Below, in pieces: positions 44,545 to 61,129 of a stretch of 64,000 nucleotides of DNA. Numbering within the stretch: position 1 is the stretch's first letter; every line of letters begins with the position of its first letter. This stretch comes from Chthonomonadales bacterium (GTDB lineage Bacteria; Armatimonadota; Chthonomonadetes; Chthonomonadales; CAJBBX01). The stretch is from NCBI GenBank assembly GCA_020849275.1, contig JADLGO010000064.1, positions 70,289 through 134,288 on the forward strand, in the 5' to 3' direction. A program made the position numbers and the translations under genes. The notes beneath the pieces are model-generated. The model saw nothing but the letters and a program-made list of their open reading frames with translations, was not told where the DNA came from and did not search any database.

Positions 44545-45771
44545 TCAGTCCGCCCAGCCGTCCGTGAAGTGGAAGACCGCGCTGAAGTAGGTGCGCGCCA
44601 TCAGGATGATGACCACGCCGCCGATCGCCAGGAAGAGCGAGATGCCGATGCGGTACATCCAGAAGCGCGCGTTGCCGAAGGCACGGTCCACGTTGCCCTG
44701 GTAGTACTCCGCCACGCGGTCGAGCATCTCCACCACCTGGCCGGTGACGACGCCCGTGGCCAGAAGCTGCTCGGCCTCGCTGGCGAAGAGGCCGGTGGCG
44801 GTGAACGCCTCGTGCAGCGGCACGCCGCTCCGCACCATGTCGTGGGAGGCCCGCAGCCGCTCGCGGATCACCCGGTTCGGCGCCACGCTCATCGCCCCCT
44901 CCCAGGCGCCGGCCGGGCCGAGCCCGGCGTTGTAGAGCCGTCGCAGCATACGGACGAAGGCGGCCAGCGCGTTCTGGCGCACGAGGTCGCCGAAAGCGGG
45001 CAGGCGAAGCACCCACGCGTCGCGCCAGGCGCGGTAGCGCGGCAGCTTCAGGCGCGCGAGCGCCCATCGGCCGACCAGCAGCAGGGCGAGCAGGATCGGA
45101 ACGTTGCGCCCGAACGCCAGGAGCAGATACTCGCCGAACCGCGCGTTGGGGAAGAGGGTGGGGAAGAGCGGCTGTGCGATGGCGAGGGCGAGCAACTCCT
45201 GCAAGATCAGCGTCCGTGGCAGCCACAGCCCCTTGTAGAACGCCTCCTCCTGCTCGTAGCCCAGGGCGATCTCGTCCAGCACGATCTCTAGGAAGCCGCC
45301 CGTCTCGCCGGCCCGCACGCCGGCGACGACGTGCGGAGCGAACAGACGGGGATAGCGCTCCATCACATCGGAAGCGCGGCCTCCCGCGCGCGCGCTGGCC
45401 GCCACGTCCGCGGCGGCGGCGCGCAGCGGAGCCGAGCCGATGCGGGGCGCCAGGTTATCGAGAGCCTGGAAGACGCTGATGCCTGCGCGCGCCATCGAGG
45501 CGAACTGACGGAAGAAGACGGCGAGCTCGTGCGCCGATGCGCCGCCGCGGCCGGCGGCAGCCGACGCTGCAACCGACCGCGGCGGCGCCGAGATCACCGC
45601 GCCGTTGGCCGGCTTCGTCGTGGCCCCGCGCGAGGGCGAGGGCGATATGGCGACGGGCTGATACCCCATCTGCCCGAGACGCGCGCGCACCTCCGGCTCG
45701 CTGGCCGCGTCCATCGTTCCCAGGACGACCTTGCCCCGCGCGTCCGTCGCCTCGTACCGCCAGAATGCCAT
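44545..45771 (-). CDS. Type II secretion/type IV pilus inner-membrane platform protein (PilC/GspF family)
   Basis: A 408-residue protein. The N-terminal MAFWRYEATDARGKVVLGTMDA is the short family start; two T2SSF domains follow (from ELAVFFRQFASMARAGISVFQALDNL and from RQNALAAFVRMLRRLYNAGLGPAGAWEGA), with three membrane helices near 205-245 and at the C-terminus. It would recruit pilins to the assembly ATPase. The gene is apart from other pilus genes but shares the window with several prepilins. It follows folK by 25 nt. Confidence 0.9.
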   Translation of the reverse strand: MAFWRYEATDARGKVVLGTMDAASEPEVRARLGQMGYQPVAISPSPSRGATTKPANGAVISAPPRSVAASAAAGRGGASAHELAVFFRQFASMARAGISVFQALDNLAPRIGSAPLRAAAADVAASARAGGRASDVMERYPRLFAPHVVAGVRAGETGGFLEIVLDEIALGYEQEEAFYKGLWLPRTLILQELLALAIAQPLFPTLFPNARFGEYLLLAFGRNVPILLALLLVGRWALARLKLPRYRAWRDAWVLRLPAFGDLVRQNALAAFVRMLRRLYNAGLGPAGAWEGAMSVAPNRVIRERLRASHDMVRSGVPLHEAFTATGLFASEAEQLLATGVVTGQVVEMLDRVAEYYQGNVDRAFGNARFWMYRIGISLFLAIGGVVIILMARTYFSAVFHFTDGWAD

Positions 45772-54210: not shown

Positions 54211-54582
54211 ATGATGAGAGCGGACCGCGACCGGTGGCGGGGCCTCGGGCTCATCGAGGTGCTGGTGGTCGCCGTGCTGCTGATCGCCCTGGCGGCGTTC
54301 CTGCTGCCGCGCTACCTGGGAGGGCGTGCCGGCGGCAAGGTGGTGCGCGCCCCGATCACCGTGGCGCGCGACGCCGTGTGCCGTACCGACCTCAACAGCG
54401 TGAGGCAGAGCATCCAGGCGGCCGCCGCGGGCGACCCGGACGGTCGCCCCGTGGGCAGCCTCGAGGAGTTGCGGGAGTTGACGCCGGACCTCAAGCGCTG
54501 TCCCGTGGGCGGGGAGCCCTACGTCTACGACCCGCGCACCGGGCAGGTGCGCTGCCCGCACCCGGGGCACGAGAGCTACTGA
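54211..54582 (+). CDS. Small minor-prepilin-like protein in the acc operon
   Basis: A 123-residue protein. The stalk WRGLGLIEVLVVAVLLIALAAF resembles a prepilin N-terminus (Gly, then LIE with the Glu5 equivalent) though Phe is replaced by Leu. The soluble part (CRTDLNSVRQSIQAAAAGDPDG, LTPDLKRCPVGGEPYVYDPRTGQVRCPH) resembles the end of GspG/DUF1559 proteins and has three cysteines. GGAGGAGAG precedes the ATG. Its place between a carrier homologue and accC is unexpected. Confidence 0.75.
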   Translation: MMRADRDRWRGLGLIEVLVVAVLLIALAAFLLPRYLGGRAGGKVVRAPITVARDAVCRTDLNSVRQSIQAAAAGDPDGRPVGSLEELRELTPDLKRCPVGGEPYVYDPRTGQVRCPHPGHESY

Positions 54583-58410: not shown

Positions 58411-59565
58411 CTAGCCCAGCCGAAACATGACCCCGAGGACGTAGGTGACGACGCCCATCACGACGCCCACCGCCGTCATCTCGAGGCCGGAGACGAACCA
58501 GTGGCGCGCCGTCACCAGGCTCTTGGCGGCGCCCACGGCGAAGTGGGCGAGCGTGCTGATGGCCGCGGAGGCGACAAGCGCGCGCGCGCCGCCGGCGAAC
58601 AGGAACGGCAGGACCGGGATGAGCGCTCCGATCGCGGTGGAGACGCTCGCGGTGCCGAGCGCGAGCCAGGGGTTGGGCAGGTGGCGCTCCGAGAGGCCGA
58701 GCTCCTCCTGGGCCATCGTGCGCAGGAACTGCTCCGGCTGCCCGGAGATGGTGGCCGCCATGTGCTCGGCCTCGGCCTCGGTGAAGCCCTTGAGCTGGTA
58801 GATGAGCGCCAGCTCCTCGCGCTCGTGCTCCGGGGCCTCCTCGATCTCCCGCCGCTCGCGCCCGAGCTCGGCTTCATACACCTCCCGCTCGGAACGGCTG
58901 GCCAGAAACGCGCTGGAGCCCATGGAGAGCGCGCTTGCCAGCGTTCCGAGCAAGCCGGCGAACACCACCTGACGGCCGCTGTCGGAGTACCCGGCCATGC
59001 CGCTGACGATTCCGAAGACGGCTCCCAGGCCGTCGTTCACGCCGTAGATGGCGTCGCCGATCCAGCTTCCCGTGGTGACGTGCCATCTCTCGCCCTTGAG
59101 GATCGCCTCGAGGCGGGTGGCCGGGCCGCCGGGGCCATGCATGGCCTGAAGCAGGCGCGAGTGGGCCCGCTCCTCGCGCTCAACGCTCAGGAACAGCTCC
59201 CGGGAGGCGGCGTCGCCGGCAAGGACGCCAGCGTTGCGCTCGGAGGAGGCGCGGGCGCGCTCTTCTTCGGCCTCCATGCCGCGCAGCATGGCCTCCACGC
59301 CGACCATGCGCGCGCGCAGCCGGTCCGCTGGTCCGACGCGCTCCTCGACTGCGGGGAGGGGTCCGCCGAGCTCGACGATACGCTCCGCGAACCGGCGGGC
59401 GTGGCTCCTCTCGGAGTGGGCGAGACGCTCGAGGAGGGAGCGGCGCTTCGCGTCGCACTGCGCCTCCGCCATCATGCGGTAGAGGCCCGCGGCCCGCAAC
59501 TCGCGGGCGTGCGCATCCCGGAGCGCGGCGAGCAACCTGGGGTCCGGCGGCGGAGGTCTCGTCAT
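58411..59565 (-). CDS. Ferritin-like/VIT1 fusion iron transporter (MbfA type)
   Basis: A 384-residue protein. Residues ~1-140 form a ferritin-like four-helix domain with the diiron ligands in AHARELRAAGLYRMMAE, LAHSERSHARRFAE and SVEREERAHSRLLQAM. Residues ~155-384 are the VIT1/CCC1 membrane transporter (WIGDAIYGVNDGLGAVFGIVSGMAGY, LSMGSSAFLASRSE, and three later helices). In Alpha-proteobacteria MbfA exports iron and protects from peroxide. The start is set by AGGA eight nt upstream and the loss of homology before residue 1. It is first in a four-gene minus-strand operon. Confidence 0.9.
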   Translation of the reverse strand: MTRPPPPDPRLLAALRDAHARELRAAGLYRMMAEAQCDAKRRSLLERLAHSERSHARRFAERIVELGGPLPAVEERVGPADRLRARMVGVEAMLRGMEAEEERARASSERNAGVLAGDAASRELFLSVEREERAHSRLLQAMHGPGGPATRLEAILKGERWHVTTGSWIGDAIYGVNDGLGAVFGIVSGMAGYSDSGRQVVFAGLLGTLASALSMGSSAFLASRSEREVYEAELGRERREIEEAPEHEREELALIYQLKGFTEAEAEHMAATISGQPEQFLRTMAQEELGLSERHLPNPWLALGTASVSTAIGALIPVLPFLFAGGARALVASAAISTLAHFAVGAAKSLVTARHWFVSGLEMTAVGVVMGVVTYVLGVMFRLG

Positions 59566-59797: not shown

Positions 59798-61129
59798 ATG
59801 GCGACAATCAACCACCGTCGCATGACGGATGCGGCGATACAGGGCCTGCTGAGAGAGTACAGAACGGGACGCCAGAAGGCGGTTCGCGACCGGATCGTGA
59901 TGCAGTACGCAGGGCTGGTCGAGAGCGTTGCGCGGCGGTTCCTCGCATCGGCGGAGCCGCTGGAGGATCTCGTTCAGGAGGGCTACATCGGGCTGATCTC
60001 GGCCGTCGACGGCTACGATGCGGGCAAGGGCGTGAAGTTCAGCACCTACGCCACGCATTTCGTGATCGGCCAGATCAAGCACCACCTCCGCGACCGGGGC
60101 AAGATCATCAAAGAGCCCGCCTGGCTCCAGGAGCTGAACCAGCGCGTGTCGCGCGTGGTGGAGTCGCTGGCCCAGGAGCTCGGGCGCCCGCCCAGCAACG
60201 CCGAGATCGGCGCGCTGGTGGGCATGGCCGAGGAGGCGGTCGGCGACCTGCTGACCGCGCGCGAGGTCTTCAAGGTCGCCTCGCTGGACGGAGGCGAGCA
60301 CGACGACGAGAGTCCCTCGGCCTACGACCTCGAGCGGGTGAAGGGCGCCCGGGTCGAGTTCGAGGTTCCCATCGAGGATCGCCACGTACTGGAGACGGCG
60401 CTCCAGAAGCTCAAGGACCTGGAGCAGACGGTGGTGCACGAGTTCTTCTTCTGCGAGCGTAACCAGACGGAGATCGCGCGCAGCCTGGGTATCTCGTGCA
60501 ACTACGTCTCGCACATCCTGCGCAACTCAACGCGCAAGCTCCGCAAGATCCTGGTCAGCGACGAGCTGAAGGAGGCACAGCTCGAGGTGGCGCTCCTGCG
60601 GCGCAGGGCCGACGAGCAGGCGCAACGGGCCGAGGAGAGCTCGGTGGTCGACGGCCTCACGCGGCTCTACAATCGCCGCTACTTCGACAACAGGCTGGAC
60701 GAGGAACTCAACCGTGCGTCGCGCCACCAGCACCCCGTCGGCATCCTCTTCGCGGTTCTGCGCGGCCACGAGCACGTCGGCCGAGCCTATGGGACCCTGC
60801 GCGCGGAGGACGGCCTGCGCCATGCGGCCGACCTGGTGCGCGCGGCCGTCCGCCGCTCGGACATCGTCACGCGCTATGATGGGGTCACCTTCGGCCTGAT
60901 CCTCCCCCACACGGGCAGCCGGATCACCGTGGTCGTGGAGCGAGTGGGGCGATCCCTGGCTCGCTGGGTCGCGGAGAGCGGTCTGGCGGCGGGGCGCGCC
61001 CCCGTCGTCGTGGAGCTCGGCTGCGCCTGGTACCCGGGCGTGGCGTCGGCTGCGGCGGCGCTGGTGGAGCACGCGTTTGGCAGTCTGGATCGGGCGCCCC
61101 TGGGCGAGGCGCCGCCGGTGGCGGCGTAG
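59798..61129 (+). CDS. Sigma-70 family factor fused to a degenerate GGDEF domain
   Basis: A 443-residue fusion. Residues ~18-105 are sigma region 2 (LVESVARRFLASAEPLEDLVQEGYIGLISAVDGYD), ~110-165 region 3 and ~200-252 region 4 (ALQKLKDLEQTVVHEFFF, then EIARSLGISCNYVSHILRNSTRKLR), like SigB/SigF/FliA-type factors. A charged helix (255-283) leads to a GGDEF-fold domain that opens with DGLTRLYNRRYFDNRL and ends near 435. The GGDEF signature is RYDGVTF (359-365) and the Mg-binding FDID region is FAVLRG, so cyclase activity is unlikely. It may bind a nucleotide or partner. Start ATG 59798; ATG 59822 is an alternative. Confidence 0.88.
   Translation: MATINHRRMTDAAIQGLLREYRTGRQKAVRDRIVMQYAGLVESVARRFLASAEPLEDLVQEGYIGLISAVDGYDAGKGVKFSTYATHFVIGQIKHHLRDRGKIIKEPAWLQELNQRVSRVVESLAQELGRPPSNAEIGALVGMAEEAVGDLLTAREVFKVASLDGGEHDDESPSAYDLERVKGARVEFEVPIEDRHVLETALQKLKDLEQTVVHEFFFCERNQTEIARSLGISCNYVSHILRNSTRKLRKILVSDELKEAQLEVALLRRRADEQAQRAEESSVVDGLTRLYNRRYFDNRLDEELNRASRHQHPVGILFAVLRGHEHVGRAYGTLRAEDGLRHAADLVRAAVRRSDIVTRYDGVTFGLILPHTGSRITVVVERVGRSLARWVAESGLAAGRAPVVVELGCAWYPGVASAAAALVEHAFGSLDRAPLGEAPPVAA

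Follow-up and report, generated by a model that had tools for sequence, protein, structure and literature searches.

Anti-sigma factors, partner switching, proteolysis and synthesis are the classical means of switching sigma factors, and the locus described here raises the question of whether a sigma factor could read a second messenger through a domain of its own. The locus is a reading frame at 59798-61129 (+) of the window, by which we mean the whole stretch of 64,000 nucleotides analysed, from a Chthonomonadales bacterium. It encodes a sigma factor fused to a degenerate GGDEF domain, hereafter sigma-GGDEF. Judging from the sequence of the gene and of its homologues, we consider it reasonably likely that the product is a one-component sigma factor that responds to cyclic di-GMP (c-di-GMP) and is tied to type IV pili (T4P), possibly with an additional control by proteolysis. 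The original prediction for this locus had described the fusion and the loss of the catalytic motifs; it did not mention the intact RxxD inhibitory site (I-site), the C-terminal Ala-Ala, the phylum-wide spread or the T4P gene cluster presented below.

Domain organization and predicted fold

The reading frame encodes 443 residues and contains no internal stop. ATG 59798 as start codon is consistent with the N-termini of the family, and no strong Shine-Dalgarno sequence is visible before it. The protein is composed of the following parts.

59798..61129, + strand: sigma-GGDEF gene, a SigB/SigF-like sigma factor with a C-terminal degenerate GGDEF domain, 443 residues (translation, Pfam, NCBIfam, AlphaFold2, Foldseek, homologues)
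59897..60103, + strand: sigma-70 region 2, residues 34-102 (Pfam PF04542, 1.6e-19)
60131..60319, + strand: sigma-70 region 3, residues 112-174 (Pfam PF04539, 3.5e-10)
60398..60547, + strand: sigma-70 region 4, residues 201-250 (Pfam PF04545, 7.6e-11)
60548..60643, + strand: helical stalk linking sigma region 4 and the GGDEF domain, residues 251-282 (AlphaFold2)
60644..61075, + strand: degenerate GGDEF domain, residues 283-426 (Pfam, 5.3e-23; alignment, AlphaFold2, Foldseek)

All four Pfam domains (Sigma70_r2, r3, r4 and GGDEF) score over their curated cut-offs. By its regions 2, 3 and 4 the protein falls into the sigma-70 family and is predicted to bind core RNA polymerase. In the homologue alignment, the core-binding stretch of region 2, E-D-L-V-Q-E-G-Y-I-G-L, consists mostly of invariant columns, and the recognition-helix segment of region 4, ISCNYVSHIL, is near-invariant. 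The closest sigma subfamily is SigB/SigF/SigG (TIGR02980), which gives the best E-value of all sigma subfamilies (7.6e-52) with a score that misses its curated cut-off (176.2 vs 234.35 bits).

The AlphaFold2 model, built with an alignment of 49 homologues, gives predicted local distance difference test (pLDDT) values of about 87-97 for most of residues 281-430, and a single unbroken helix (234-281) is predicted to run from sigma region 4 into the GGDEF part. When searched with Foldseek, the N-terminal part matches sigma factors and the GGDEF part matches the GGDEF structure 4urg, with a template modelling (TM) score of 0.81 by target length, as well as the c-di-GMP-bound PleD structure 2wb4. 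None of the PDB sequence and fold matches listed carries sigma and GGDEF on one chain. Pfam, AlphaFold2 and Foldseek thus agree on the arrangement first read from the DNA alone, that is, sigma regions 2, 3 and 4, a helical linker and a complete GGDEF domain in one frame, and both structural approaches return a GGDEF fold for the C-terminal part.

Loss of the active site and retention of the I-site

The GGDEF domain opens with DGLTRLYNRR, has RYDGVTF in place of the catalytic signature and has lost FDID, exactly as described previously. The two marks of an active cyclase, GG[DE]EF and the metal-binding aspartate, are replaced by YDGVTF and V320 in the window protein. Conservation was counted in 123 complete homologues, with the register to WspR taken from alignments, and none of the 123 carries GG[DE]EF, which bears out the earlier view that the domain is catalytically dead. 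In these homologues the columns for metal (320), guanine (328) and the GGDEF loop (361-364) are scrambled. The columns equivalent to the metal and guanine ligands of the active site (A-site), 320, 322, 328 and 337, are unconserved in the family, and the ligand residues are absent in the window protein.

A different set of residues is kept:

60713..60715, + strand: Arg306, conserved in 122/123 homologues (alignment)
60851..60862, + strand: I-site RxxD, R352-R-S-D355, invariant in 123/123, in canonical register before the lost catalytic loop (alignment)
60875..60892, + strand: lost catalytic loop YDGVTF, canonical YGG[DE]EF (alignment)
60941..60943, + strand: Arg382, conserved in 118/123 (alignment)

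The three lowest entropies in the whole GGDEF domain are those of the columns R352, D355 and R306. R306, R352, D355 and R382 probably correspond to PleD R313, R359, D362 and R390, of which R313 presumably belongs to the secondary and R390 to the primary I-site of PleD. R309, aligned with WspR R198, is kept in 92/123 homologues, and P370, E303 and R299 are likewise highly conserved.

Among active cyclases of Armatimonadota, about 27/34 carry RxxD in register and some are without it. Since only this share retains the motif, a dead enzyme that never loses it goes beyond the usual degree of retention. In active cyclases the motif serves feedback inhibition, and because this would be purposeless in a dead enzyme, the strict retention argues for ligand sensing. 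The original prediction had left the ligand as GTP, c-di-GMP or a protein. This choice can now be narrowed: as the A-site varies freely and R352, D355, R306 and R382 are invariant or nearly so, c-di-GMP at the I-site is favoured over GTP. By its sequence, the combination of a lost catalytic motif with a kept RxxD is the signature of dead GGDEF receptors of c-di-GMP such as PopA, PelD and CdgA.

Two homologues (L107 and L123) keep FxDxD and have a half-intact loop, YGGGTF. They look like intermediates between an active cyclase and a dead sensor, which is consistent with descent of the family from an active cyclase.

The host genome has two EAL domains and eight matches to GGDEF, among them several in which GG[DE]EF is intact; c-di-GMP is therefore probably both made and degraded in the host. 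GGDEF domains vary in number within the phylum, and one Armatimonadota genome (G021) has 49 matches compared with 4-9 in five others searched.

Distribution and inheritance

A scan of GTDB contigs with the window protein alone returned 49 sigma-GGDEF relatives of 37-65% identity, including one cut off by the end of its contig. Every one lies in a record named Armatimonadota, one of its groups, or only 'bacterium'. A profile search of 291 Armatimonadota genomes gave a match in 193 at E<=1e-60, a count that takes in a few sigma-only-looking or strongly diverged matches (code groups f12 and f4). Among high-quality genomes, 142/194 have a match, and among genera, 112/156. Nearly all genomes with a match have one copy, and nearly all homologue genes are free of internal stops.

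On the tree of the 123 complete homologues, the 32 taxonomic groups take 31 changes, as few as is possible, which indicates that Armatimonadota have had the gene for long and have passed it on vertically. No full-length match was found in any organism named as outside Armatimonadota, in a genome-contig scan with only six short peptide patterns, so that absence from other phyla is partly covered, without an exhaustive search of them. Neither 72,556 plasmid records nor 50,697 phage records contained a match that spanned 80% of the query, and a scan of viral contigs found no relative.

Linkage to type IV pilus genes

Clustering of the neighbours of the homologues revealed a PilC/GspF-type gene directly upstream and co-oriented in about 70 loci (for instance L013, L014, L026, L049, L050 and L057, in which the sigma-GGDEF gene comes right after pilC, as in about 65 others). 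PilT, PilB and a secretin commonly stand before pilC, with short gaps. NCBIfam identifies these proteins as PilT/PilU, PilB/GspE-type ATPase, PilC/GspF and PilQ/GspD-type secretin, and the presence of PilT marks the cluster as a type IV pilus system. In 6 loci, a prepilin gene follows the sigma-GGDEF gene.

Prepilin-type N-methylation proteins are numerous in the three genomes searched for them (87, 53 and 39 matches in G000, G163 and G135) and are scattered singly over the chromosome. These dispersed genes are candidates for the regulon.

Several related genes were noticed in passing. The window has prepilin-type genes at about 49354 and about 50593, with the open reading frame (ORF) 54211-54582 possibly another, and a divergent GspF/PilC-like protein at 44545-45771 (-); the genome has at least five PilC/GspF-type genes, this one included. 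In G163, regions upstream of prepilin genes show TATAAT-like boxes and some TTAAC repeats (L228, L239, L242 and L266), the repeats possibly being a response-regulator or sigma site.

The C-terminal Ala-Ala

The window protein terminates in VAA, of which the last two residues constitute a further element of interest:

61121..61126, + strand: C-terminal Ala-Ala, putative ClpXP (ssrA-like) degron (homologue C-termini, host ssrA tag)

An Ala-Ala end is found in 83/133 homologues, compared with 14/742 neighbouring ORFs (2%). Some families have it almost throughout and others lack it, and the 123-homologue tree shows 9 changes of the trait; the residues ahead of it are not conserved and the tail is unalignable. 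The host transfer-messenger RNA (ssrA) tag reads ANTNQYALAA, and clpX is present in the host. A C-terminal AA is a classical ClpXP degron, as in sHSP1 (PMC8119881). Taken together, these features suggest that the Ala-Ala of this large clade may act as a ClpXP degron, its members being candidate substrates.

Proposed mode of action

Binding of c-di-GMP by the sigma-GGDEF protein is the most probable part of the scheme that we propose, and appears quite probable. An intercalated c-di-GMP pair could bridge the I-site (R352, D355 and R382) of one GGDEF domain and R306, usually together with R309, of another. Such bridging might alter the dimer or oligomeric state through the helical stalk, and the altered state would in turn make the sigma domains accessible to RNA polymerase or shield them from it. 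That c-di-GMP binding gates the activity or the stability of the sigma factor in this or a related manner seems likely. Transcription of T4P or pilin genes would thereby be coupled to c-di-GMP without a separate anti-sigma factor; inclusion of T4P or pilin genes in the regulon is slightly favoured. In the Ala-Ala clade, the window protein included, ClpXP may form a second layer of control. c-di-GMP could activate or inhibit, the evidence not telling the direction. For the broadest form of the scheme, in which such proteins make up a class of sigma factors throughout the phylum, bind c-di-GMP through their own dead GGDEF domain without an anti-sigma factor, and control T4P and scattered prepilin genes, with Ala-Ala-set turnover in one large clade, we consider the case evenly balanced.

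The neighbourhood of the gene is compatible with the absence of a separate regulator that had been noted earlier: no anti-sigma or partner-switching kinase gene is present among the ten neighbouring window genes scanned or among the recurrent neighbours at homologue loci, the rest of the genome not having been searched.

Several observations weigh against this scheme. RxxD is common in active cyclases too. The predicted template modelling score (pTM) of the whole AlphaFold2 model is 0.41, which makes the placement of the sigma and GGDEF parts relative to each other uncertain. Several families lack Ala-Ala. No match was obtained in 9/12 genomes of the family to which the window belongs; the gene is lost in places within Armatimonadota. 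The sigma gene of the window organism sits outside the T4P cluster: pilB-pilT-pilC lies on another contig, followed by a putative prepilin peptidase and a prepilin, without a sigma gene. The linkage to pilC is ancestral or at least predominant, and is broken in the window lineage. PilT is found in 289/291 genomes, including genomes without the fusion, so that the gene is not needed for T4P and co-occurrence with these near-universal pili is uninformative. Finally, dyad counting found no shared promoter motif upstream of the cluster genes. The motifs that it returned were rejected, as they look like signals of coding conservation and not of a promoter. The SigB-like pattern GTTT-N-GGGTA was not enriched (8/350 vs 15/326), and when the regions upstream of prepilin genes were inspected by eye in two genomes, 40 genes in each, no single motif emerged.

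Alternative explanations

The GGDEF domain could be mainly a module for protein interaction or dimerization, docking a cyclase, a phosphodiesterase or a T4P protein, with c-di-GMP not being its ligand. Dead GGDEF domains can work through protein contacts; RmdB, for example, binds sigma-WhiG directly through its inactive GGDEF domain (PMC13232838). The high conservation of P370, E303 and R299 also counts in favour of this reading. Against this, the most conserved columns, R352, D355 and R306, are those that align with c-di-GMP-contacting residues of PleD, and the GGDEF fold does not need RxxD, which is missing from some of the active cyclases in the phylum. On balance we regard this explanation as unlikely.

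A second explanation, which we hold to be just as unlikely, is that control is mainly by proteolysis: c-di-GMP or an adaptor would expose or hide the Ala-Ala tail and thus set the half-life of the protein, and the GGDEF domain would bear on promoter choice only indirectly. The strong excess of Ala-Ala over background behind an unalignable tail, the ALAA end of the host ssrA tag, the presence of clpX and the analogy to CtrA degradation with PopA all speak for it. However, many families keep the I-site without Ala-Ala, hence proteolysis cannot be the general mechanism.

That the former active site binds GTP or some other nucleotide, so that the domain would report nucleotide pools, appears very unlikely. 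Degenerate GGDEF domains that bind GTP exist, and the few homologues with FxDxD and YGGGTF could be taken in its favour, but neither the metal and guanine columns nor the GGDEF loop are conserved in the family, and the window protein lacks the corresponding residues.

An artefact that joined two genes by sequencing error, or a decaying fusion without function, can be dismissed, nothing having been found in its favour: about 190 other genomes carry an intact copy of this fusion, which is vertically inherited and has strictly conserved key residues.

Genomic neighbourhood

The neighbours of the gene in the window encode a biotin carboxylase, a PIG-L deacetylase, an acetyltransferase, a peptidase C26, a VIT1/ferritin-like protein, an ABC transporter and HIT proteins. 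The VIT1 family protein (58411-59565, -) has an N-terminal ferritin/rubrerythrin-like domain and is divergent from the sigma gene.

Comparison with known systems

Both modules are well known. In the open-licence articles covered by our literature searches, we found neither a conserved class of proteins that joins the two covalently nor any sigma-GGDEF fusion, in line with the original prediction, which knew of no characterized example. If the proposed scheme is true, sensing of a second messenger by a domain of the sigma factor itself would represent a new and deeply conserved control logic, with T4P as the likely process in a phylum whose regulation is almost unstudied. It may help to explain how dozens of dispersed prepilin genes are coordinated in genomes with scattered operons. 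The two residues predicted to be key to ligand binding, R352 and D355, offer a specific test by point mutations.

The protein resembles SigB/SigF/SigG factors (TIGR02980) in its regions 2-3-4, this being its best sigma family match, but it scores below the cut-off, has an extra C-terminal domain and has no adjacent partner-switching anti-sigma gene. With ClpXP substrates such as sHSP1 and CtrA, which ends in -AA, it shares the C-terminal Ala-Ala, an end also found in the host ssrA tag; here, however, Ala-Ala is limited to part of the family and degradation is a prediction. FimX is similar in that c-di-GMP and a protein with a degenerate GGDEF domain are linked to T4P (PMC5595344, PMC12564702). 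It differs in binding c-di-GMP via its EAL domain and in acting on PilB post-translationally, whereas the window protein would act on transcription.

The GGDEF domain resembles those of PopA and PelD, dead GGDEF receptors that bind c-di-GMP through RxxD (PMC10333796, PMC12564702), and that of CdgA, which has GVNEF with RxxD five residues upstream. CdgA is a particularly fitting precedent; its receptor role was predicted from sequence before binding was demonstrated, with a dissociation constant of about 2 uM (PMC3271064). The dead A-site and the RxxD in the same register are common to all, and c-di-GMP binding by the window protein is predicted on this basis. None of the three is a sigma factor, PopA being REC-REC-GGDEF and PelD a membrane protein. 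The closest system is that of Streptomyces, in which c-di-GMP controls sigma-WhiG by way of RsiG, and RmdB binds sigma-WhiG through its inactive GGDEF domain (PMC13232838). That system likewise has a c-di-GMP-dependent sigma factor and an inactive GGDEF domain contacting it. No adjacent candidate for a separate, RsiG-type anti-sigma factor that binds c-di-GMP was found at the window locus. In sigma-WhiG regulation such a factor is the sensor, and the contacting GGDEF domain works in trans; the window protein, by contrast, carries the sigma factor and a GGDEF domain with an I-site on one chain.
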